Shown one piece after another: positions 2,754-16,622 of a DNA stretch of 22,212 bases. The DNA lies in the IMG/VR virus record IMGVR_UViG_3300008050_000365, positions 1 through 22,212 of that record. One strand, given 5' to 3'. The stretch is from a virus. Position numbers and translations under genes: made by a program. The notes beneath the pieces were generated by a model. That model ran no database searches. It was not told the DNA's origin and was given only the letters and a program-made list of their open reading frames with translations. Position 1 is the first letter of the stretch. Each line of letters begins with the position of its first letter.

Positions 2754-3281
2754 TTATGGATGAAATGGTTTCCCATCAACAAGGATTGTGATGTTACTTC
2801 CAATTTCTCCACTCCACCGTTTAGTAAGAACGCCTGCTTCTTTTAGCATAGACATTCCAAGTTCGGTTGATTTATTCCACCTGTCATTTACATGTTCATA
2901 CATTTCTTCATGACCAACAACAGCAGAGATGCCGGATTGAATGATTGCTCTTGCACAATCTGTACATGCAAACCACGGACAGTACATGATGAGTCCGGTG
3001 GAACAGATTCCTCTTTCAGCACACTTATAGATTACGTTTCGTTCTGCGTGTTCAACATAGTCATACTTTTGTGGCCGAGTCCACCTATCCTCTTTGTCTG
3101 AAATTCTATCAGGCAAACCGTTCACACCCCATCCTATGACGCCTGCGTGTTCTTTTACAAGGATTGCACCAAGTTGAGTAGACGGGTCTTTACTATATGA
3201 TTGTGCATACGAATATGCATGACGAAGAAATGTTCGACACATAGAATCATTTTCTACGAGTTCAAGAACATCATTGTCCAT
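2754..3281 (-). CDS. cd: Deoxycytidylate (dCMP) deaminase
   Basis: This zinc-dependent cytidine-deaminase-fold enzyme converts dCMP to dUMP for dTTP synthesis. With the start chosen here it has 175 residues. The signature is HAE (78-80; H is a zinc ligand and E the general acid/base) plus PWFACTDCA (102-110; C106 and C109 are zinc ligands). The longer frame begins at ATG 3308, but those nine extra residues come from the region that encodes the conserved C-terminus of UvsY in another frame. I therefore prefer ATG 3281, which has GGAG about 11 bases upstream and an 11-base overlap with uvsY. It sits between uvsY and uvsW, so nucleotide supply and recombination genes are cotranscribed. Confidence 0.9.
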   Translation of the reverse strand: MDNDVLELVENDSMCRTFLRHAYSYAQSYSKDPSTQLGAILVKEHAGVIGWGVNGLPDRISDKEDRWTRPQKYDYVEHAERNVIYKCAERGICSTGLIMYCPWFACTDCARAIIQSGISAVVGHEEMYEHVNDRWNKSTELGMSMLKEAGVLTKRWSGEIGSNITILVDGKPFHP

Positions 3282-3705
3282 TAATGAATTTTCTCCACTC
3301 AATCGCATTGCGGATATTCCACTGGCGATTGTTGATGGATTTGAGAATAGAGTCTAGATAGTTAATCTTCTCTTTCTGATATGCCACTCTGTTGGAGAGT
3401 TTCTGTAGGTCTTCATCGGAGTCCATATACAGGTCGATGTCTTGTTTTAGTATTTTAAACTGGAAAGGTTCCCAACCATATTCTTCAAGTTGGTCTTGAT
3501 CCAATTTACCTGTATAGTATTCCCACTTTGTTTTCTTTAGCCTATAGTAGTCACTGTTCAGTTTCTGTAGGACAAGTTTCTCATCAAGATAAAAGTTGAG
3601 ATACTTACCGTGCAATTGGGGAATGGTCATTGATTCGACATCCAGTTCGGTGTCGTCAATAGGCATATCTTCGGCCACTAATTTTCTTATTTCACTTAAA
3701 TCCAT
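3271..3705 (-). CDS. uvsY: UvsY recombination mediator
   Basis: In T4 UvsY loads the UvsX recombinase on single-stranded DNA coated with gp32. This protein of about 144 residues keeps the family layout: an N-terminal MDLSEIRKL, a central KTKWEYYTGK (T4 has a similar YYSG), a predicted coiled coil, and the C-terminal NAIEWRKF seen in marine T4-like UvsY proteins. T4 UvsY is 137 residues. An upstream in-frame ATG at 3714 exists, but it lies inside the -10 hexamer of a sigma70-type promoter. ATG 3705 fits both the promoter and the family N-terminus. No Shine-Dalgarno sequence precedes it. It heads the uvsY-deaminase-uvsW group. Confidence 0.85.
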   Translation of the reverse strand: MDLSEIRKLVAEDMPIDDTELDVESMTIPQLHGKYLNFYLDEKLVLQKLNSDYYRLKKTKWEYYTGKLDQDQLEEYGWEPFQFKILKQDIDLYMDSDEDLQKLSNRVAYQKEKINYLDSILKSINNRQWNIRNAIEWRKFINGQ

Positions 3706-3712
3706 ACACAAC

Positions 3713-3740
3713 ATTATACAACAGAAAACAGAAAAGTCAA
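3713..3740 (-). promoter_or_regulatory. Host sigma70-type promoter for uvsY operon
   Basis: On the minus strand TTGACT (3740-3735, one mismatch) is followed after 16 bases by a perfect TATAAT (3718-3713). The expected transcription start is near 3706, one base before the preferred uvsY ATG at 3705. It has the same 16-base spacer and nearly the same -10-to-ATG distance as the promoter of gp55. Confidence 0.7.
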
Positions 3741-3757
3741 GTCATGAATCAGATCAG

Positions 3758-4036
3758 TCAACCTTTCAATAATACAGGGTTGCCGTTTTCATCATATGCC
3801 CACCATACATTATATCCGTCGGCATTCTCGCGTGCCCAAGCCCTTGGGTCTAAGATTGCTGGATTTTCGGGCGCCACGTGGTCCGGGCCTCCCGGATCTC
3901 CAGGAAACCATTGGGGAACGAACCTTCCTGAATACGCGGGTCCCGGGTCCATAGGGCCCTGTTCATTCAGACCCTCCCGTCTACCGGCTTCGTATGCTTC
4001 TCTTAATAGTTTATCGTTTTTAATTTCATATGACAT
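3758..4036 (-). CDS. Small orphan with AYEAGRR leader; putative internal head protein
   Basis: I do not recognise a named family for this 92-residue protein. Residues 7-25 (NDKLLREAYEAGRREGLNE) are nearly identical to the leader of the gene at 14288-14593 and similar to one in the gene at 5225-5932. The leader looks helical and ends in L23-N24-E25 before Q26, the (L/I)xE pattern cleaved by T4-type prohead proteases. The rest is Gly/Pro-rich (GPMDPGPAYSG, FPGDPGGPD) and ends in an aromatic YNVWWAYDENGNPV stretch, similar in style to the end of the 14288 gene. Its DNA is markedly more GC-rich than its neighbours. The start has AAGGA upstream. I infer a capsid-targeted protein; a tail accessory role is also possible. 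Confidence 0.7.
   Translation of the reverse strand: MSYEIKNDKLLREAYEAGRREGLNEQGPMDPGPAYSGRFVPQWFPGDPGGPDHVAPENPAILDPRAWARENADGYNVWWAYDENGNPVLLKG
3977..4025 (-). repeat. Leader repeat, copy A
   Basis: This 49-base stretch matches 14528-14576 at 42 of 49 positions by my count, including 25 of the first 26. It encodes the NDKLLREAYEAGRR leader of the orphan at 3758-4036. Both copies lie at the 5' ends of otherwise largely dissimilar genes. Confidence 0.8.
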
Positions 4037-4081: not shown

Positions 4082-4603
4082 TTATTTAGTTGCTTCTTCA
4101 ATCTTTGCGATTTGCTGTTGAATGACTTCTGTTCGGTTCGGCCAAAGAATGTATTCTTTGTCTGGGTTCTTTAGAAGGTTATAAAGAAGTGGCATAATGA
4201 GTTTCTTTACATCGTCCATTTTCTCTGTGTATTCTTCTTCGAGTTCGCCTTTTCTTTCTTCGACCTCATCGATGATTGCTCGAATGTCTGAACCCTGCTG
4301 TGCAAACATTTGTGACAGTTCATCTGTTTCTAGTGATACAATCTGATCAATCTTTCCTTCGATTCTAGACAGGTCATCGTTTGGAACGGCGAAGTCTTCT
4401 GTTTCAGTATTCTGTAGAGCCACCAATACTGAACTGAGTTTGCTTTCAAGTTCGTCTATCTTTTCTACAATTACCGAAGAAACCTCAGAAGCAACTTCGG
4501 AAGCCACTTCTTGTGTCTCTGCTAGTCTTTCAGAGCCACCGTCGAGTTCGTCTGCATCTACTGCGGTGAATCCAAAATCATAATTTGAATAGTCTTCTGC
4601 CAT
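4082..4603 (-). CDS. Acidic coiled-coil protein of unknown function
   Basis: This protein of 173 residues has heptad-like, Glu-rich segments from about residue 28 to 135, including EKIDELESKLSSVLVAL and RIEGKIDQIVSLETDEL, which suggest a long coiled coil. The C-terminus (KKLIMPLLYNLLKNPDKEY followed by ILWPNR) is compact and less charged. I have the impression that this NPxKEYIxWPNR ending recurs in other phage proteins, but I cannot attach a function to it. The start is 4 bases after the gp3-like stop with AAAAGG upstream, so the two are probably cotranscribed from the late promoter at 5160-5167. A structural or assembly role is an inference from context only. Confidence 0.8.
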   Translation of the reverse strand: MAEDYSNYDFGFTAVDADELDGGSERLAETQEVASEVASEVSSVIVEKIDELESKLSSVLVALQNTETEDFAVPNDDLSRIEGKIDQIVSLETDELSQMFAQQGSDIRAIIDEVEERKGELEEEYTEKMDDVKKLIMPLLYNLLKNPDKEYILWPNRTEVIQQQIAKIEEATK

Positions 4604-5224: not shown

Positions 5225-5932
5225 TTATACTCCGCCGCCGCCGCCGCCGCGTGGCGTCCCCATACCAGGGGGCGTTGGTTGATTCGAGTGTGCGCATCTC
5301 GGGCCACGACATGAATCCTTAAAGTATAGCCTCCACGGGCCCGGATCTAACCATTGCCACCAGGTGCCCTCACCGTCTTGCCGCGTCTCTCCATGTTCCC
5401 CGCGACCCCAGTCCTCGGGCCCGCCTGATCTTGGTGGTGCGGGCCACCCGCCTGGGCCAGGATTCGACGCGCTGGCCATGCGTCCTGGCATTGCATTCCC
5501 GATGCCCATACCAGAGCCTGGTGCCATACCAGATTGTTCATACATGCGCCGACCTTCAACAACATCTTCATCATCAGACTTCCATGAAGGCCTTGTCCAT
5601 GTCGCTCCTTTTTTCTTCATTGCGTCCCTTTTTGCTTGAATTGCTGGCGGAACAAAGTCGTCTGGCATCGCGTCCTGCATATACATACCTAATTCATCAC
5701 CCGCTGCAAGTGAGAATCGATTTGCTGGCCCTGTGGGCGGCGTCACCGGCGGGGCAGTTACAATTGGCCTGCCCCATCTATCAAATTGTTGTCCTTGACG
5801 ATTTGATGTATGTGCAGCAGGCCCACGTTCTAATAACCCTTGACGATATCCTTCTTGATATGCTTGTCTCTTTTTAAGTTCTCTCTTAGAACTCTCTGAA
5901 AGTTCATTCCAGTTATGTTTGCTGAAGGTCAT
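5225..5932 (-). CDS. GC-rich Gly/Pro-rich orphan with leader; putative internal head protein
   Basis: I do not recognise a family for this 235-residue protein. Residues 22-36 (RQAYQEGYRQGLLER) are a diverged form of the AYEAGRRxGLxE leader of two other small proteins here, ending in L33-L34-E35, a possible prohead-protease site. The middle has a charged stretch (AIQAKRDAMKKKGATWTRP). The C-terminal half is rich in Gly, Pro, Met and Trp (GTWWQWLDPGPWRLYF) and ends in six glycines. GC content is clearly above the neighbours, especially 5350-5520. AAGGAGA precedes the start. The gene has its own late promoter and terminator and sits next to gp23, which suggests strong late expression. Long overlapping frames on the opposite strand are shadows of its composition. 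Confidence 0.75.
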   Translation of the reverse strand: MTFSKHNWNELSESSKRELKKRQAYQEGYRQGLLERGPAAHTSNRQGQQFDRWGRPIVTAPPVTPPTGPANRFSLAAGDELGMYMQDAMPDDFVPPAIQAKRDAMKKKGATWTRPSWKSDDEDVVEGRRMYEQSGMAPGSGMGIGNAMPGRMASASNPGPGGWPAPPRSGGPEDWGRGEHGETRQDGEGTWWQWLDPGPWRLYFKDSCRGPRCAHSNQPTPPGMGTPRGGGGGGV

Positions 5933-8782: not shown

Positions 8783-9427
8783 TTATAATTTGGACAAGAA
8801 ATCAGCGAAGCACCATTCTGTTACTTCATCAATCATTCCTTGCGGCGCAGTTTTAATGATTTTCTTGTATTTATCTACATTGGATTCTTTAATTATACCA
8901 TTATCCCATACCCATTCTTTGCCTTCCATGATACCATCTACAAATGCATTTGGTGCTGATGGGTCGGCCACGATGTCTACGGCTGCAAGCATAAAGTCGT
9001 CTGAAACAAACTTCGAACCATTCTTCTCTTCAAGACTTCCCATACCACGGGATGAAACGCCAAGTTGTGCGCCTTCGTCAAGAAGATTCTTTACAATCTT
9101 ACCCATTGGAGTATCCATGATTTTGGCTTTACCAATAACATCATCATTGTTCTCATATAAATCTGTGATGATGTGGGATACTCTTTCGAGGTTGACTGTT
9201 GGTCCTTCTGGATGTCCAAGTTCACCAAATGCTCTTTTACCAGAAACGAAGTTGTTATTATAGTTTTTAACTTCATCCATGAGAATTTTCTTTGGATATA
9301 CTCTGCCGTTTCTGTTCTTTTGCTCTGCTTGCATAAACACACCACTAATGTAGTAGTTGGCAGGACCACCTTCTACATCTTCTTTGATGAGTTTAATGTC
9401 TTCAGTTGTTTCTGTAATGAGTTTCAT
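8783..9427 (-). CDS. 21: Prohead core protease gp21
   Basis: This is the serine protease of the T4 prohead; it sits in the core, cuts after (L/I)xE and matures gp22, gp23 and internal proteins. It is 214 residues against 212 in T4. Conserved blocks are ISGVFMQAEQKNRNGRVYP, GELGHPEGPTVNLERVSHI (candidate catalytic histidines H72/H85) and QLGVSSRGMG (S125/S126 as nucleophile region), with VDIVADPSAPNAF after them. The N-terminus MKLITET contains ITE before T and resembles the MELITE leader of T4 Alt, suggesting self-processing. It starts in a TAATG overlap with the upstream small gene. Confidence 0.95.
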   Translation of the reverse strand: MKLITETTEDIKLIKEDVEGGPANYYISGVFMQAEQKNRNGRVYPKKILMDEVKNYNNNFVSGKRAFGELGHPEGPTVNLERVSHIITDLYENNDDVIGKAKIMDTPMGKIVKNLLDEGAQLGVSSRGMGSLEEKNGSKFVSDDFMLAAVDIVADPSAPNAFVDGIMEGKEWVWDNGIIKESNVDKYKKIIKTAPQGMIDEVTEWCFADFLSKL

Positions 9428-9786
9428 TATGGTGCGCCTCCTCCGCCGAATCCTCCGTCACCGGGATACAGTGTCGGTCTACCTTGTTTGATTGGTTGCT
9501 GGTTGCTGGTTGATTGGGAATTTCCTGGCTCTCCTGGCGGTGGAACTTGCTGTGCCCATTGTCCATCAACGAACACATAATAATTCCATGTCCAGTATCC
9601 ATCGGGATATGCACCGTCATAGTAAACATTAGCATAATAGTTAGCATCCCACACTTCCTGTCCACCGGGATACCCGGCCGGCATCGAAGGCGGTGGTGGT
9701 ATAGGAGGTAACTCCTCGTTTAATCTCATTGGATTAGCACAACTCTCTATAAGATTTCTATATGATTTTGTGTTTAATCGTTTCAT
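9427..9786 (-). CDS. Small Tyr/Pro/Gly-rich protein; putative prohead core or internal protein
   Basis: This is a 119-residue protein of no family I recognise. The N-terminus (SYRNLIESC, then RLNEE) holds two (L/I)xE sites, at residues 12-14 and 22-24, matching the position of capsid-targeting leaders in T4 internal proteins. The remainder is poly-Pro (PPIPPPPSMPAGYPGG), then a Tyr/Trp-rich repeat-like stretch (YYANVYYDGAYPDGYWTW) and a Gly-rich end. It overlaps both neighbours by TAATG junctions, in the place where T4 has the small prohead core proteins gp67/gp68. A core or packaged protein is an inference from location and leader. Confidence 0.75.
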   Translation of the reverse strand: MKRLNTKSYRNLIESCANPMRLNEELPPIPPPPSMPAGYPGGQEVWDANYYANVYYDGAYPDGYWTWNYYVFVDGQWAQQVPPPGEPGNSQSTSNQQPIKQGRPTLYPGDGGFGGGGAP

Positions 9787-10133
9787 TATTGTCCGCCTGC
9801 TCCCATTGGTGCAGCCCCTGCTCCTGGCATACCACCTGGACCACCTTCTGGTTTTGGTTTATTTTCTGATTGTAATAATTCTTTTGCAAAGTATACCATT
9901 TCAGGATAAAACTTTTTGTAAAGTTCATCTAAAATTCTTGAGTCAGCAGAACCTTCTTGTTGCATCTGTTGAATAAACACATCCACTTTTGGATAACCTT
10001 TAATCTTATCGAAGAATTTATCATCAATGCTAGGCGCAGGACCCCCGCCTGGTCCACCCATGCCTGGCATACCGGGCATACCGGGTGGCGGCCCTTGCTC
10101 AATTATCAAGTTGTGCTTTTCGAATAGGTTCAT
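9786..10133 (-). CDS. Small collagen-like Gly/Pro protein; putative prohead core protein
   Basis: This 115-residue protein has an N-terminal leader EKHNLIIEQG with I10-I11-E12 before Q13, a possible gp21 site. A short collagen-like Gly-Pro-Met tract (GPPPGMPGMPGMGGPGGG, residues 14-31) follows, then a charged helical centre (about 36-92, SIDDKFFDKIKGYPKVDVF and onward), and a second Gly/Ala/Pro/Met tail. It starts in an ATGA overlap with the upstream gene and ends in a TAATG overlap with the next. No known domain is evident. Position and leader suggest a prohead core or internal head role, analogous to gp67/gp68 of T4 but not demonstrably homologous. Confidence 0.75.
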   Translation of the reverse strand: MNLFEKHNLIIEQGPPPGMPGMPGMGGPGGGPAPSIDDKFFDKIKGYPKVDVFIQQMQQEGSADSRILDELYKKFYPEMVYFAKELLQSENKPKPEGGPGGMPGAGAAPMGAGGQ

Positions 10134-10429
10134 CTTTTCTTCATGGCCTTAGTGATGGCCTTTCTTTTTTTATGAAGGAATCGGTCACTAGAATCTACAT
10201 CACCATCGTTGTCGATGTCTTTATCTTTTCTGTCTTTATGCTTACCCTTTAATGCTTTTTTGTTTACGGGGTCCAACTCTTCGTCATCTTCGCCGTAGAG
10301 CATTTCTTTCTTCCTCTCAATAAAATAATTCATCTTATCATAAAGAGAAGACTCTAGGACTTCTCTCGTTTCAGAGAGGTTTCCACTCATGATGTTTGTG
10401 AAAATTTTGTTTACTTTTCTGCTTGCCAT
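10130..10429 (-). CDS. Small prohead-region protein with EF-hand-like loop
   Basis: This 99-residue, highly charged protein has an N-terminal helix pair (MASRKVNKIFTNIMSGNLSE, then EVLESSLYDKMNYFIERKKEM) resembling small prohead-core proteins of marine T4-like phages as I recall them. Residues 71-82 (DIDNDGDVDSSD) have acidic residues at positions 1, 3, 5 and 12 and Gly at 6 of a canonical EF-hand/dockerin calcium loop. The C-terminus is a basic stretch (HKKRKAITKAMKKR). LSE (18-20) is a possible gp21 site. AGGAGAG precedes the start, and the stop overlaps the next ATG. It may correspond to gp68 by position. Confidence 0.75.
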   Translation of the reverse strand: MASRKVNKIFTNIMSGNLSETREVLESSLYDKMNYFIERKKEMLYGEDDEELDPVNKKALKGKHKDRKDKDIDNDGDVDSSDRFLHKKRKAITKAMKKR

Positions 10430-10432
10430 TTT

Positions 10433-12127
10433 TTATCTCTCCTGAGCGAATCTTGCTATTTTTACAAATGAACCGGAATCTGATGTGAGCATTTCTCTCA
10501 TCTTTGTTTGATTTTCCTCATTTAATTCATCATGTAGGTTGATTAAGTTTTCAGAAATATCAGGTGTTATATGGATGATACTTCCGTTGATATTTATATC
10601 AACTGGCATTTTGGAAGTATTTGATGTCTGTAATTGTTGGATAACGGATTCTTTCAATCCAAGTGCTTTTACCCAATGGTCAACACTTGCACTGATGATT
10701 CTGCCGCTGATGTTGCCATAAGAGATATCACTCTTATCACGAACATTTGCTTTAGGAGCAACGACATTTAGAACCTTCTTGCGAAGTTCGTTATCAATCT
10801 TATCTGCTCTTACCATAATGAAACGAGTCTTACCACCCTTTGACTGGACAGCAAGTTTACCTGTTGTATATTTCTTTACTGCTTGCTTGACTTGTTTTGC
10901 AATTGCGGCGGTGTTGTCTTCATCCAGTTGATAGGATTCTTTTACGATTTTACCATGATTCTTTTTCATATATTTCTTTATGGCCCTTACGGTCAACCCT
11001 GCACCACTACTCCTCAGATAATCAATATCGATTACTTTATTTCCACTAACTGTTCCAGTAGCAACACCTGCATTTGCGATATCCTTAGCAAACTGATTTG
11101 CCTGTTTATTGGAAGGGAATTGATAGGACGCATTTGCCTCATCCAGTTCAACAGATTCTTTACGGATAAATTTCTTTAGTACCTGACCAACCTTTGCATC
11201 GGGGTCAAGAACAATTGTTCCACCTCGATGTCTTGAGATTTCTTTGTGTGCATTGTCTCTTGTAAGTTTCGCCGCAACAACTTTACCTTTTTTATCTGTA
11301 ATTACATAAACATCTCTTCGTAATTCATCCAGTTGAACAGATTCAGCAATATCCCAGCCTTTTCTTTCATAACTCTTCAAATCTTTTCTGTCGATCACAA
11401 TCACTTTACCCTTTTTGTCTACTACCATAACTTCTTTCTTTGGGTCTTTTAATTGTCTTCCGCCCAGACCCAACTTCTGCCGCTGCGCCTTCTTAAGCCA
11501 CTTGGGTTTGTTGTGGTGACGGACTGTAACTTCATCCAGATAGGATTCCTTTGCATAGAGAGGATTTCCCTTTGCATCTTCCTTTGCAACAAGTTTATTG
11601 TTCTTTGCAAATTGCATGGCTTTTTGATGACTGACATGACTACCGTGGAATGCGAACATCTTGATGCGACCACGCTTTGGGTCACTGATGGTTGCCATTA
11701 ATACCTTGTCTTGCTTACCAGAACCCATCGACATCTTAGGTCTTTCAACTACAACAAATCTAGTTGTGGGACCAAGAACAGATTGCACATTCATTAGAAT
11801 CTTTGCCTTGCCGCTCTCGATGTGTTTCTTGATTTCGGGACTTGCTGGAACATCAAAATCTCTAAATGATTTTGCTTCGTTTAGATGATATCCCTTATCG
11901 TCGCAATGTTCGCATCCTTCACCGTCACACTTGGGACATGTGACCTTTTTCTTTTCAGCACATTTGCAATCTGCACATCCACAATCTTCTAATAAAGTAG
12001 AGGAAATATTTGCTCTGCGAGCATCAATACTATTAATGACCTTTTCGGCCAAGATATGAGAAAAGGTATTGTACATGTCTCCGATGTTATTATCAGTAGA
12101 TTCGTTGATTAATTTTTTATAATCCAT
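10433..12127 (-). CDS. Multi-module virion protein with repeated ESxxLDE linkers; putative prohead polyprotein
   Basis: This 564-residue protein lies between portal gp20 and the prohead genes. Its N-terminus, MDYKKLINES, resembles the Y-x-x-(F/L)-I-x-E-(A/S) leader of T4 internal proteins. A Cys-rich zinc-finger-like segment follows (49-75, with CPKCDGEG as in DnaJ). Then come blocks separated by LNE84 and by AKESYLDE199, AESVQLDE268, RKESVELDE330 and VKESYQLDE403. The blocks between them are about 115, 69, 62 and 73 residues, followed by a C-terminal part of about 160, and most are Lys/Arg-rich. Every boundary ends in LxE, the cleavage pattern of T4-type prohead proteases. I infer a polyprotein cut by gp21 inside the head into several small basic, perhaps DNA-binding, proteins. 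It starts in a TGATG overlap with gp20. An uncut structural protein is the alternative. Confidence 0.85.
   Translation of the reverse strand: MDYKKLINESTDNNIGDMYNTFSHILAEKVINSIDARRANISSTLLEDCGCADCKCAEKKKVTCPKCDGEGCEHCDDKGYHLNEAKSFRDFDVPASPEIKKHIESGKAKILMNVQSVLGPTTRFVVVERPKMSMGSGKQDKVLMATISDPKRGRIKMFAFHGSHVSHQKAMQFAKNNKLVAKEDAKGNPLYAKESYLDEVTVRHHNKPKWLKKAQRQKLGLGGRQLKDPKKEVMVVDKKGKVIVIDRKDLKSYERKGWDIAESVQLDELRRDVYVITDKKGKVVAAKLTRDNAHKEISRHRGGTIVLDPDAKVGQVLKKFIRKESVELDEANASYQFPSNKQANQFAKDIANAGVATGTVSGNKVIDIDYLRSSGAGLTVRAIKKYMKKNHGKIVKESYQLDEDNTAAIAKQVKQAVKKYTTGKLAVQSKGGKTRFIMVRADKIDNELRKKVLNVVAPKANVRDKSDISYGNISGRIISASVDHWVKALGLKESVIQQLQTSNTSKMPVDININGSIIHITPDISENLINLHDELNEENQTKMREMLTSDSGSFVKIARFAQER
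10591..10598 (-). promoter_or_regulatory. Possible internal late promoter (exact TATAAATA)
   Basis: An exact TATAAATA lies in the 3' part of the polyprotein-like gene, within a 7-base inverted repeat GTTGATA-TTTA-TATCAAC. It would start transcription near 10585, upstream of the small prohead genes and gp21. A chance match inside AT-rich coding DNA is quite possible. Confidence 0.35.
10921..10945 (-). repeat. Linker repeat 4 (KESYQLDE)
   Basis: This is one of four short interspersed copies with plus-strand core CATCCAG(TTGA)TAGGATTC or CATCCAGTTsAACAGATTC. It encodes the KESYQLDE linker that separates two modules of the polyprotein-like gene. Confidence 0.75.
11140..11164 (-). repeat. Linker repeat 3 (KESVELDE)
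   Basis: The plus-strand sequence CATCCAGTTCAACAGATTC is nearly identical to the copy at 11326 and encodes the KESVELDE linker. Confidence 0.75.
11326..11347 (-). repeat. Linker repeat 2 (AESVQLDE)
   Basis: The plus-strand sequence CATCCAGTTGAACAGATTC differs from the copy at 11140 by one base over this core and encodes the AESVQLDE linker. Confidence 0.75.
11533..11554 (-). repeat. Linker repeat 1 (KESYLDE)
   Basis: The plus-strand sequence CATCCAGATAGGATTCC is the shortest of the four copies, lacking one codon compared with the others, and encodes the KESYLDE linker. Confidence 0.7.
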
Positions 12128-13635
12128 CAGAATTCTTCTTCCTCTTCTTTGTAAAGACCACTCTTCTTTTCTTTAGATATCTGCTTATCCATATCCTTGA
12201 TTTCTGTTTCATTAAACTTAAGAATGTTCTTTCTCACCCAATCAATGGAATAGTACTTACCTATGTATTCATTTACCTCTCTTAGAATCTCCATTCTTTC
12301 TTTTAAGATTTCTGATTCTTTGAGTTCTGTGAAGTATGAGTCCGTAGCAAAGTCAAAATACACATTTTGTGCAATGCTTTGCCAGTCATCTTTGGTGATG
12401 ATATTCTTAAGAATCAATTGAGTTTTGAGTAAATCTAAGAACAAGTCACTAAATTTTGATCTCAATCTCTGAATGAATTTGAAGAATCGAATTTCATCAC
12501 GGGTAATTTCAGCACTTCTTCCCATATTGAAACCATTTTCTGCTTCCAGCCTACTGATAGGAACATTCAAAGCACGGAACAGTTTCTTCTGGAAGTAATC
12601 AACATCTTCCATTTCGCCTAAATTTTGTCCACCATCAAGAGTAGTGATTTCAGTTCCTCTACCACCTTCTCTTCTTGGCAACCAATAATCTTCAAGCATG
12701 TTCATGTGCTTTTTGTCGTCTTTGATTTCACCAGTGGATGCATCATAGACAAGTTTATTTCTATATTGATTCATCAATTGCTTGAGATATTGTTCGGCTT
12801 TATTCTTTGGAAGGTTGCCGACATCAACATAAAATACTCTTCGTTCTGGTGCCCGGGAGATTCTGTAAATAACAACAGAGTCTTCAATCATTCTTAATTG
12901 ATTAAGAGGACGAATGGCCTTATGTAGATATCCGATTACCATTTTCTTAGAACCATCAAACAATCCAGAAGTAATATAAGAAATAGCATCCGGTGATATC
13001 TTTACACCCTTTTCTACAAATTGGGGTGTGTATGTTTTGTTCTTGGGAGTTGCGTCATACATGTAAAATTCATTTGCCGATTTTACAATCTCAACTCCAT
13101 CTTTGTTTTTTTCTTTTTTAATTTCACGAATTTTCTTAATTCGAGTTGGATCAATTGACCGGAGTTCAATAATTCCCTTTTTCTTGTTATTTTCATCTAC
13201 AATTTTATGGAAATATAGTCTACCATCAATAAACCATTTTCTAAAGACATCAATACCTTTGTTGTTAAAATCCAACAAAGTCAGAATCTCTTTAAATTCA
13301 GTATTAATTTTATCTTTAATAGAATCACTCTGTTCGTAATGATCCATATTAAGTTTTACGGGTGTTCTATATTCATCAAAAACAACACCTTCATTTACAA
13401 TATCTTGAACCGCGAGTTCAACCTCCGGCGACAATATCATAGTTCTATAATGATTAATAAATCCCGAATCAGATTTTTGATCACCTTCTAGGTCAATGTA
13501 TGAACCATAGAATGCGCCCGATGCAACTTGAGTCGCACCGTCATCGAAATCTGGTGCGACAAAAGATTGTGCTTTGGGATCTGGTGCGTCGGGACTCTTT
13601 TTTCTTCCGAAATTAAATCCAAATAACTCTGGCAT
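12127..13635 (-). CDS. 20: Portal vertex protein gp20
   Basis: The dodecameric portal through which DNA enters and leaves the head; it also starts prohead assembly and docks the terminase. It is 502 residues against 524 in T4. Typical segments are GAFYGSYIDLEGDQKSDSGF, FINHYRTMILSPEVELAVQD, GRLYFHKIVDENNKKKGIIE, LRSIDPTRIKKIREI and the DYWLPRREGGRGTEITTLDG loop, with PISRLEAENGFNMGRSAEI after it. These are the conserved gp20 regions used as marker sequences. The C-terminus is a run of Lys and Glu. The start has AGGA about 9 bases upstream, and the stop overlaps the next gene by TGATG. Confidence 0.97.
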   Translation of the reverse strand: MPELFGFNFGRKKSPDAPDPKAQSFVAPDFDDGATQVASGAFYGSYIDLEGDQKSDSGFINHYRTMILSPEVELAVQDIVNEGVVFDEYRTPVKLNMDHYEQSDSIKDKINTEFKEILTLLDFNNKGIDVFRKWFIDGRLYFHKIVDENNKKKGIIELRSIDPTRIKKIREIKKEKNKDGVEIVKSANEFYMYDATPKNKTYTPQFVEKGVKISPDAISYITSGLFDGSKKMVIGYLHKAIRPLNQLRMIEDSVVIYRISRAPERRVFYVDVGNLPKNKAEQYLKQLMNQYRNKLVYDASTGEIKDDKKHMNMLEDYWLPRREGGRGTEITTLDGGQNLGEMEDVDYFQKKLFRALNVPISRLEAENGFNMGRSAEITRDEIRFFKFIQRLRSKFSDLFLDLLKTQLILKNIITKDDWQSIAQNVYFDFATDSYFTELKESEILKERMEILREVNEYIGKYYSIDWVRKNILKFNETEIKDMDKQISKEKKSGLYKEEEEEF

Positions 13636-14287: not shown

Positions 14288-14593
14288 TCATCCAAGGGGA
14301 ACATATTGCCAGTAGCAACTATTGGGGCAAGTCCATATCCAATATCCAATTACATTTCCATCTGCATCATATACAGCAATATTATGCCCATCATGCGTGC
14401 CGTGGAAGTCGGGTTGCTTAAAAGGGGTTACATACGGATAATCGCCTGGCTCATTGAGCCACCCTTTCGGATTATATTCCATACCGCCCGGGCCCTGTGG
14501 TGCTTGCTTTTGCTCCCGCAGGCCTTGCCGTCTACCTGCTTCGTATGCTTCTCGAAGAAGTTTGTCGTTTCTAATTGGTGAGTTGTGATTCAT
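14288..14593 (-). CDS. Small orphan with AYEAGRR leader; putative internal head protein
   Basis: This is a 101-residue protein with the start set at ATG 14593, which has AAGGA 8 bases upstream; a longer frame to 14647 would run into the end of gp18. Residues 9-27 (NDKLLREAYEAGRRQGLRE) are nearly identical to the leader of the gene at 3758-4036. L25-R26-E27 before Q28 fits a prohead-protease site. The body is Gly/Pro-rich (APQGPGGMEY, GWLNEPGDYP) and ends in NIAVYDADGNVIGYWIW with two Cys and several Trp/Tyr, comparable to the end of the 3758 gene. It is an unusual insert between sheath and tube genes. I infer a packaged protein. Confidence 0.75.
   Translation of the reverse strand: MNHNSPIRNDKLLREAYEAGRRQGLREQKQAPQGPGGMEYNPKGWLNEPGDYPYVTPFKQPDFHGTHDGHNIAVYDADGNVIGYWIWTCPNSCYWQYVPLG
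14528..14576 (-). repeat. Leader repeat, copy B
   Basis: This matches 3977-4025 at 42 of 49 positions by my count and encodes the NDKLLREAYEAGRR leader of the orphan at 14288-14593. Confidence 0.8.
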
Positions 14594-14613
14594 TTTTTTA
14601 TTCCTTATTACTA

Positions 14614-14621
14614 TATCTATA
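14614..14621 (-). promoter_or_regulatory. Weak late-promoter candidate (TATAGATA)
   Basis: The minus strand reads TATAGATA, seven of eight bases of the late consensus, between the gp18 stop and the orphan at 14593. The start would be near 14608, with the AAGGA site still in the leader. Confidence 0.3.
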
Positions 14622-14633
14622 AGACTTTTTGTA

Positions 14634-16622
14634 TCATCCACCAGCAATTTCGCTGAAATCTACACCAGAACGGGCAGCAACGAAGTTGAGTTGAATGAAG
14701 TTAATTGAACGAGTTGGTTTCACGAAGATGTCTGCAACAAACTTGTTGTTGTCAATGACTGTTGAAGTGTTGTTGGTTTCGTCACAAACAACCTTAAAGT
14801 CAGTGATACCTCTTCGTCCCTGAATATCTCGCAAGAACGGTTCAATCATATTCTTGAACTGGGCTCTTGTGAATGCATCATTCTGCTCGAAGAGTTGGAA
14901 CTTCGATGCAGTGGAGATTGCTTTCTCCATCACGATGAAGAGTCTTCTGACATTGATTCTATCGAATGCACTTCCCTTAGATTGTAGTGTCTTGTCACCG
15001 AAGAGGACTGTACCTTCTCCGGGGAATGCAACTACAGGATTTACACTGTCAATATAGAGGTCATCTCTGTATGATTCAGGTGTGGGGTTCATCGCTAGTT
15101 TTACAACTCCACGAATCTGGCCACGGTTGAAACCTGCGGGAGAGAACCACGGGTCGTTAACATTATCTGTTCTTGCACAGAGTCCTGCCATATCACCGTT
15201 CAATGGAATCCATCGCAATTGGTCATTGTGACGGTCGTATTGATACTTCCAACCACTGTCAAGGAATGCATAGGAACTGTTCTTATTGAGTTGAGTGTTC
15301 CTGTAGTCTTTGACATTTTCTACCTGAGTAGAAAGTGCAGTTACATTTACAACATCTCCATATGCTGGTGAAACGAATGCTACGCAGTCTTTTCTTGCAT
15401 CTGCAATATCAATAACGCTTCCTGCAAGTGATGCACTTGCGGCACCTGTAAGAATAAGTGAAACATCAACTGTGTTTGTGTCAGCAAACAAGTTGTATGA
15501 TGTTAGCATTTGTGTGTCGGATGATGTTGCACCATATGCTCCAGAAACACCAGAGTAGTATTTTCTTGCAACATTTCCGAAGATGGTTCCTGTGCCACCC
15601 GCACCTGCGATGGTCGAGTTTGCTCCAGAACCACCACCAGCGGCAAGAGTAGGTAGTGAATTACCCACATTAATGTACTTGGAGTTTTTATTGATAACAT
15701 CAGCATAGAAGTTTGAGTTTCCGTCGCCATCTCTTGCATCTTGGGCAAGTGAGACTCCGTTGTAGACTTCCATAACTTCACCAGTGACTCCGGTGAAGTC
15801 TCCGTCTTCGTCGATAACGAGAATTGAGAATTGGTCGCCAGTACCACCAGAGAGTTTCTCTAGGTTGGTTGAGGTGTATGGTCGGGAAACATATGATTTA
15901 TATGCGAATTCCCATGTTGCTGTTGTTCCTATTGTGACTGCATCAGTAATCGCAGGCGAAATACCAATTGTGGTCCCAGGCGAACCGTGAGTTACGCCTG
16001 TTACAGTGAATGTTGTACTTAGGTTTCCGATTTTAATCTTATCACCGGCAATCGCGGCAGTTTGGCCACCAGTACCACCAGTTCTAGCAACAATTGTGGA
16101 TAGTCCTGATACCTGGCCGGAGAGTCCCATCTCTTGACTTGTTCCCTTAGTAGCGTGTGTTCCCCATCCAGAAGTTAGTCCTGCAAGACCCTCTACAACG
16201 GCAACTCTAAGACTGTTACCAAATGAACCGGGATACTTTGCGAAGAATTTGGTATCTCCTGCATCACTATAAATTGCACCACCGGCAGAATAACCTGCAT
16301 CATAGACATCGGGGTTTTTGATAATTGCGCCTGAACCACCAAATCCTGCATTCATTGAGTCAGTAGTGGTTGCTCTTGCTACTGTACAAGAACCCCCATA
16401 ACTAAGAAAGTTTGCAGTATTTAACCAGTTCTCATAATTGTCTGTTGTTGGTTTCCCATATAATGAAGTGAGTTGGGTTTCATTAGGCACAAGTACTCGA
16501 TACTCTTCTGGGCCCCAATCAGCACGAATAACAGCGGCTGCTCTTGTAGTAGAGACAGTGGGGATTATGCTTGTGAAATCCTTCTCTGTGACGGTAACGC
16601 CTGGACTTACTTTAAATGCCAT
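14634..16622 (-). CDS. 18: Contractile tail sheath protein gp18
   Basis: This sheath subunit contracts to drive the tube through the host envelope. It is 662 residues against 659 in T4. The N-terminus (MAFKVSPGVTVTEKDFTSII, RAAAVIRADWGPEEYRVLVP) and the C-terminal domain (NPVVAFPGEGTVLFGDKTL, FDRINVRRLFIVMEKAIS, FVKPTRSINFIQLNFVAARS) are diagnostic of the family. A Gly/Thr-rich segment around residues 160-245 probably forms a surface domain, the variable part of sheath proteins. AAGGAG lies 8 bases upstream of the start. The 74-base gap before it holds a weak CTAAC hairpin but no clear promoter. Confidence 0.96.
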   Translation of the reverse strand: MAFKVSPGVTVTEKDFTSIIPTVSTTRAAAVIRADWGPEEYRVLVPNETQLTSLYGKPTTDNYENWLNTANFLSYGGSCTVARATTTDSMNAGFGGSGAIIKNPDVYDAGYSAGGAIYSDAGDTKFFAKYPGSFGNSLRVAVVEGLAGLTSGWGTHATKGTSQEMGLSGQVSGLSTIVARTGGTGGQTAAIAGDKIKIGNLSTTFTVTGVTHGSPGTTIGISPAITDAVTIGTTATWEFAYKSYVSRPYTSTNLEKLSGGTGDQFSILVIDEDGDFTGVTGEVMEVYNGVSLAQDARDGDGNSNFYADVINKNSKYINVGNSLPTLAAGGGSGANSTIAGAGGTGTIFGNVARKYYSGVSGAYGATSSDTQMLTSYNLFADTNTVDVSLILTGAASASLAGSVIDIADARKDCVAFVSPAYGDVVNVTALSTQVENVKDYRNTQLNKNSSYAFLDSGWKYQYDRHNDQLRWIPLNGDMAGLCARTDNVNDPWFSPAGFNRGQIRGVVKLAMNPTPESYRDDLYIDSVNPVVAFPGEGTVLFGDKTLQSKGSAFDRINVRRLFIVMEKAISTASKFQLFEQNDAFTRAQFKNMIEPFLRDIQGRRGITDFKVVCDETNNTSTVIDNNKFVADIFVKPTRSINFIQLNFVAARSGVDFSEIAGG

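Follow-up and report, generated by a model that had tools for sequence, protein, structure and literature searches.

The gene that directly follows the portal gene in this marine T4-like virus of bacteria is likely a gp67-type prohead-core gene that has turned into a modular polyprotein carrier, from which gp21 would release several basic internal proteins. The window, i.e., the whole analyzed stretch of DNA, is a 22,212-base fragment of the viral genome with nearly all genes on the minus strand. A polyprotein precursor had been proposed by the sequence-only reading. Comparison of sequences supports this proposal: blocks are swapped at the linkers, the cleavage motif is absent within blocks while control motifs are intact, the gp23 leader carries corresponding sites, and the motif agrees with the T4 consensus.

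Gene Context of the Putative Precursor

The relevant genes of the head locus are:

12127..13635, minus strand: gp20 portal, immediately upstream of the precursor gene (PF07230, E 1.3e-182)
10433..12127, minus strand: whole precursor gene, 564 aa plus stop, ATG start
10130..10429, minus strand: 99-aa basic gene with a DxDNDGDxD motif at the place of T4 gene 68 (phrog_22379, E 1.3e-18); order conserved in relatives
8783..9427, minus strand: gp21-type prohead protease, Peptidase S77 (PF03420, E 1.7e-36; phrog_207, E 5.9e-79)

The start of the precursor ORF overlaps the gp20 stop by one base. Further head genes in the window encode the gp22 scaffold (PF25623) and the gp23 capsid protein (PF07068), giving the order gp20, polyprotein, three short genes, gp21, gp22, gp23. 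The gene thus lies between portal and protease as first described, with the correction that three short genes intervene before gp21. Its place directly 3' of gene 20 and upstream of genes 68 and 21 is that of gp67. The gp21-type protease at 8783..9427 is presumed to be the processing enzyme of the polyprotein.

Several other features of the region were noted. The motif KDKDIDNDGDVDSSDxxLHKKRKAI of the 10130-10429 product (minus), calcium-loop-like with a basic tail, was also noted in numerous polyproteins and other products of head loci (L008-L018 and L214; L numbers denote loci of other phages). Upstream of gp21, short genes (at 9786-10133 and 9427-9786 of the window, minus; L037:12738-13091) are Pro/Gly/Met-rich after leaders that include MNLFEKHNLIIE and MKTGQIDFITE, each followed by QGPPPG, and likely encode head-internal proteins. 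An N-terminus resembling NDKLLREAYEAGRRxGLxEQ is common to otherwise unrelated small proteins, several of them Pro/Gly-rich (window 3758-4036, 14288-14647 and, more loosely, 5225-5932, all minus; L022:6180-6542); its sequence suggests another type of head-targeting leader that has (L/I)xE at its end. A gene starting ...DFGFTxxDxxEL (window 4082-4603, minus) has counterparts close to the polyprotein gene of three other phages (L303:1103-1489, L293:11416-12033, L300:3383-3745). Proteins similar to UvsW and UvsY are apparently encoded in the window as well (1228-2745 and 3271-3714); they were named by ORF sequence and T4-like gene order.

Linkers and Segments of the Putative Precursor

The precursor is divided as follows:

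12101..12127, minus strand: leader MDYKKLINE, residues 1-9, with the spacing Y-x-x-(F/L)-I-x-E of the T4 IPIII leader
11987..12100, minus strand: gp67-like prohead-core block, residues 10-47, with sites LAE28 and LLE47 (hhalign, gene position)
11876..11986, minus strand: Cys-rich zinc-ribbon-like piece CPKCxGxGCxHC, residues 48-84, ending in LNE84 (sequence; phrog_1418, E 1.5e-5 over 34-85)
11531..11875, minus strand: module F1, residues 85-199, pI 9.9, ending in ESYLDE; recurs in other phages
11324..11530, minus strand: module F10, residues 200-268, pI 10.1, ending in ESVQLDE, also with IAE262; recurs in L303
11138..11323, minus strand: module F5, residues 269-330, pI 9.8, ending in ESVELDE; recurs in L275 and L293
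10919..11137, minus strand: module F4, residues 331-403, pI 9.6, ending in ESYQLDE; predicted b-a-b-b-a-b (ferredoxin-like) fold
10649..10918, minus strand: basic block, residues 404-493, pI 10.3, ending in LKE; pLDDT below 50
10436..10648, minus strand: conserved acidic C-terminal domain, residues 494-564; separate gene in other T4-like phages, pLDDT about 80

The linkers, assigned by sequence, are located at:

11531..11548, minus strand: linker ESYLDE
11324..11344, minus strand: linker ESVQLDE
11138..11158, minus strand: linker ESVELDE, DNA GAATCTGTTGAACTGGATGAG
10919..10939, minus strand: linker ESYQLDE

All four linkers were recovered with the ends claimed for them (residues 199, 268, 330, and 403), as were LNE84 and INE9. 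Their general form is ES(Y/V)(Q/E)LDE. Four full linkers compare with 0.001 expected, and none of 20,000 shuffles gave more than one. The motif (L/I)xE occurs 12 times in the protein against 4.06 expected by shuffling (P = 2e-4), additional sites being LAE28, LLE47, IAE262, LKE493, ISE526, and LNE537.

Blocks 85-199, 200-268, 269-330, and 331-403 comprise 115, 69, 62, and 73 aa, and block 404-492 comprises 89 aa. These five interior blocks have pI values of 9.6-10.3, whereas the end segments (10-84 and 493-564) are acidic. The expectation of mostly basic blocks of 62-115 residues therefore held for the sizes and for the interior; residues 404-564 form two units, and the ends are acidic.

The leader MDYKKLINE matches by sequence the T4 type of internal-protein leader ending in (L/I)xE. 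Its spacing is that of the T4 IPIII capsid-targeting sequence (CTS), MKTYQEFIAE. In the T4 CTS, a role was reported for residues 4, 7, 8, and 10 (PMC9026906). INE9 is kept in L040 and L022 and is missing in L023 and L024; an (L/I)xE site at the place equivalent to LNE84 is present in L040, L022, and L023. Alignment of the N-terminal block to T4 gp67 gave an hhalign probability of 71 (E 3.7e-5, 46 columns), and residues 1-84 look, by sequence, like a gp67-type leader and prohead core to which a small peptide resembling a zinc ribbon is joined. In pelagiphage, cyanophage, and other T4-like phages, a short gp67-like gene was also seen immediately behind gp20 (L183:1964-2170, L184:6043-6216, L104:3240-3410, and others); gp67 and gp68, and also alt, have been reported as missing from marine T4-like cyanophages (PMC2984593). 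Other T4-like phages encode the C-domain by a gene of its own, with 78-125 aa; the two forms align at an hhalign probability of 99 (E 8.4e-18). A relation of the C-domain to T4 gp68 was considered and judged absent by eye. Since the N-terminal ~84 residues resemble gp67-type core plus a zinc-ribbon-like piece and the C-domain is a separate gene elsewhere, only the interior blocks look like cargo.

Exchange of Blocks between Phages

Loci of relatives were fetched with portal, protease, and polyprotein sequences, and the gp20-gp21 interval was read. Within the clade of 72-92% portal identity, the N- and C-termini are related and the middle differs, with 0 to about 6 blocks. Close relatives have no block (L033, 143 aa), one block, flanked by the linker-like KLEE and by ESVQLDE (L022, 274 aa), two (L024, L029), three (L031), or more (L023, L040, L037). 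More distantly related phages either encode the two ends separately (L104, L108, L106, L136) or have them in one fused gene, which lacks blocks in L107 and contains them in L004. Another lineage has one block between two linkers before the C-domain (L084, L090) or a blockless junction (L092), and a further lineage has a 510-aa polyprotein between gp20 and gp21 (L279).

Thirty-two polyproteins were cut at the linkers, and the resulting 126 pieces were clustered; the identical or near-identical pairs L303/L305 and L224/L291 were each counted once. The block order in the window is [N+F1]-F10-F5-F4-[x+C]. In L303 (815 aa, 8 linkers), it is 94 aa-F1-F4-F10-F1'-F6-66 aa-F3-C-like, and in L307, F4 precedes F1. 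F5 (55 aa) is alike in the window, L275, and L293 and is flanked by unrelated blocks in the latter two. F1 occurs in other contexts in L040, L023, L037, L300, L303, L306, and L307, and F4 is found in L004, L303, and L307 and also in L023, L037, and L293. F10 is present in L303, and its RQLKDPKKEV core in L006-L020; F3 is common to L024, L029, L031, L040, and L303. No relatives of block 404-493 were found by this clustering. The comparison of block content suggested by the sequence-only reading thus showed that the blocks of the window recur elsewhere in different number and sequence, with the same linkers at their borders. Their occurrence in other orders and contexts marks the linkers as boundaries of exchangeable units. 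The ends of BLAST matches lie near linkers more frequently than by chance (35% vs. 14% within 10 aa); this was dropped as evidence because the linkers themselves match, and block clustering and motif avoidance were used instead.

Across 111 loci, the gp20-gp21 interval ranges from about 230 bases to 5.7 kb and may hold collagen-like or fibre-like genes (L093, L139, L070). This variation in size and content points to a general insertion hot spot.

When cultured phages were searched by tblastn with the window protein, L303, and L279, matches were short or lacking. The cultured relative Caulobacter phage Cr30 encodes the same kind of protein together with a gp21-type (S77) protease; the Cr30 protein has 682 aa, 16 (L/I)xE motifs against 7.7 expected (among them INE75, LEE142, INE287, LNE361, and LDE418), and one block resembling the C-domain. 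Beyond the gp20-gp21 interval, such polyproteins were also seen next to a "cytidyltransferase" gene of nucleotidyltransferase-like type (L006, L016; cultured S-CAM9, P-TIM68, and Cr30).

Avoidance of the Cleavage Motif within Blocks

The T4 gp21 cleavage consensus is L/I-X-E (PMC9026906). The gp23 leader sites LLE42 and LQE49, the latter followed by Q, are conserved across the clade, which is consistent with this consensus. If gp21 cuts at (L/I)xE, blocks that are meant to survive should be without the motif. Among 42 distinct interior blocks (3,356 aa) from the clade of the window and phages sharing its blocks, (L/I)xE occurred once against 13.8 expected, and none of 2,000 shuffles was as low. 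The sole interior site, ESVDELYE, is a diverged linker missed by the search pattern. With one block per family, the count was 1 against 8.4 (P = 0.0016). The control motifs ExL (15/13.9), LxD (29/25.1), and LxxE (15/13.6) were near expectation. The related motif (V/F/M)xE was depleted too, with 9 against 16.4 in the clade set (P 0.025) and 17 against 31.1 in all blocks. For (L/I)xE, avoidance was weaker when all 64 blocks, including those of more distant phages, were taken (19 vs. 27.8, P 0.04).

Outside the blocks, the motif was enriched in N-terminal (41/18.3) and C-terminal segments (31/20.0) and in gp22 (11/4.7) and gp21 (8/2.5) of the window; non-head proteins were neutral (39/32.4). These numbers bear on the main alternative, by which the whole chain is disposable prohead core mass that is cut by gp21 only for exit, like T4 gp22 and gp67, the blocks being neither kept nor injected and their variation being neutral. 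The gp67-like N-terminal block, the place of the gene among core genes, the richness of the end segments in (L/I)xE as in gp22 and gp21, and the cutting of T4 gp67 to fragments (PMC9026906) all agree with such a role. Nevertheless, we regard it as unlikely: motif depletion in the interior blocks and enrichment in gp22 are the reverse of what is expected for destruction, the blocks are basic whereas the end segments are acidic, and the fast turnover of blocks among close relatives suits adaptive cargo.

Conservation of Linker DNA

The 21 bp consensus of the linker DNA, derived from the ESVELDE/ESFELDE codons in ten genes, is GAATCCGTTGAACTGGATGAA. Codon usage in the linkers differed strongly from that outside the linkers of the same genes, with TCC for Ser at 90% vs. 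13% (P 7e-23), CTG for Leu at 67% vs. 8% (P 1e-18), and GTT for Val at 96% vs. 49% (P 2e-5); as the linkers are tied by descent, these P values overstate independence, and it is the effect size that counts. In the 134.8-kb record behind L303, every match to the linker DNA pattern falls in the polyprotein gene. The linker DNA is conserved beyond the need of the peptide, in a pattern that fits copying or recombination through it, and the 21-bp linker may also serve module exchange. Tentatively, the linker could have a dual function as gp21 cut site in the protein and as DNA homology element for the insertion, loss, and reordering of cassettes, the gene being a recombination-driven cassette array for head-packaged, injected proteins. 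Such an array would be loosely comparable to an integron, but all within one open reading frame.

The conservation of synonymous positions indicates that part of the linker conservation is not about the peptide and would suit a chain that stays whole, with the linkers as flexible spacers and recombination points only, but this is very improbable, as the avoidance of (L/I)xE and not of ExL, LxD, or LxxE has no explanation without cleavage, the gene adjoins a protease of that specificity, and the linkers have P1 Glu in 94 of 94 cases (Glu was already demanded by the search pattern) and P3 Leu/Ile in 90 of 94.

Predicted Structure and Searches for Function

AlphaFold2 gave a mean pLDDT of 50.7 for the whole protein. 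Confident parts were 332-397 (F4, b-a-b-b-a-b; most F4 residues at about 68-87) and 494-563 (C-domain), and F1 was intermediate. Linker regions were mostly low, and blocks 200-268 and 404-493 were mostly <50. In a second AlphaFold2 model of residues 85-403 alone, the pLDDT of F1 and F4 was raised. An alignment of 35 fragments made earlier for this purpose was discarded because of misalignment by MAFFT. No confident part crosses a linker, which agrees with blocks as separate domains; the overall model is poor, and low-confidence blocks were not counted as evidence. Since the model is weak, it supports separate folding only for F4, the C-domain, and partly F1.

Neither the window protein nor any of ten related polyproteins had a Pfam family above the cut-off, a PDB sequence search with the blocks gave no match, and Foldseek against the PDB gave no significant match, the best being a weak ferredoxin-like similarity to F4 (E 7e-3). 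Structure matches in BFVD were mostly to uncharacterised phage proteins. Given these results, a role of the blocks as injected effectors rests on analogy.

Proposed Processing and Comparison with Known Systems

For the modular carrier, we infer the following course. The gp67-like leader, and probably the acidic C-terminal domain too, would build the chain into the prohead scaffold core. During maturation, the gp21-type protease would cut after the (L/I)xE of every linker and at the extra sites of the end segments. Trimming would affect the end segments, whereas four or five proteins of 62-115 aa, most of them basic, would remain intact and stay with the DNA in the head. Like T4 internal proteins, they would probably be ejected into the host along with the DNA. 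The interior blocks would be exchangeable cargo that is gained, lost, and reordered, with the repeated 21-bp linker DNA as the probable site of homologous recombination.

T4 internal proteins are the classic example of phage proteins delivered with the DNA. The polyprotein resembles the CTS-targeted, gp21-processed IPI, IPII, IPIII, and Alt in its short leader with a putative cut after (L/I)xE, its small, basic, and diverse predicted products, and its place among late head genes. While the T4 proteins have one gene and one cargo per leader, the polyprotein has one leader and a string of cargo units, each followed by a putative cut site and exchanged as a whole; the window carries four linkers, and a single ORF can have up to 8 (L303). 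T4 internal proteins are diverse, have only the CTS in common, and contact DNA through Lys (PMC3012670); they have a cleaved leader, and T4 gp22 and gp67 are cut into several fragments (PMC9026906). The likeness to T4 gp67 lies in the position directly after gene 20, a tentative alignment of the N-terminal 46 residues (hhalign probability 71), and several (L/I)xE sites. T4 gp67, however, has 80 aa with a strongly acidic tail and no cargo, whereas the polyprotein genes encode 143-658 aa with inserted blocks, the 564-aa window protein having a basic interior.

Prohead-protease substrates of phiKZ and SPN3US are head proteins cleaved behind a short motif with Glu as its last residue, in some cases more than once, but 13 of 14 SPN3US sites remove N-terminal propeptides, and no string of separate products is reported there (PMC10052503). 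Polyvalent proteins (Iyer et al. 2017, PMC5512222) are also multi-domain, shuffled, and proposed to enter the host with the DNA. Unlike these, which have recognisable enzymatic domains and often an embedded peptidase, the polyprotein has small blocks, no peptidase of its own, and apparent cut sites for the head protease; no recognisable effector or peptidase domains were detected in the window protein and ten related polyproteins. No description of such a polyprotein was found in the literature searched, which was mostly open-access.

Phage "cytidyltransferase" genes (GRFNPPTxGH) often have CTS-like leaders (L006:88-2463, L016:163-1572, L185:316-1461, L308:1569-2693), among them MKNFREITE, MRKFRDLVE, and, in S-MbCM6, MKKFSAFLSE. 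Cytidyltransferases have repeatedly been found in cyanophage virions (PMC3037559, PMC10665884), which independently supports that leader-bearing proteins can be packaged.

If the proposed processing is correct, a core gene of the gp67 type would serve marine phages as a plug-in carrier of cargo as well. Dozens of small proteins delimited by linkers could then be catalogued and examined for roles in anti-defence or host takeover. The linker alone would predict the start and end of each mature protein. A natural cargo system based on a polyprotein might further be a model for packing more than one protein into phage heads.
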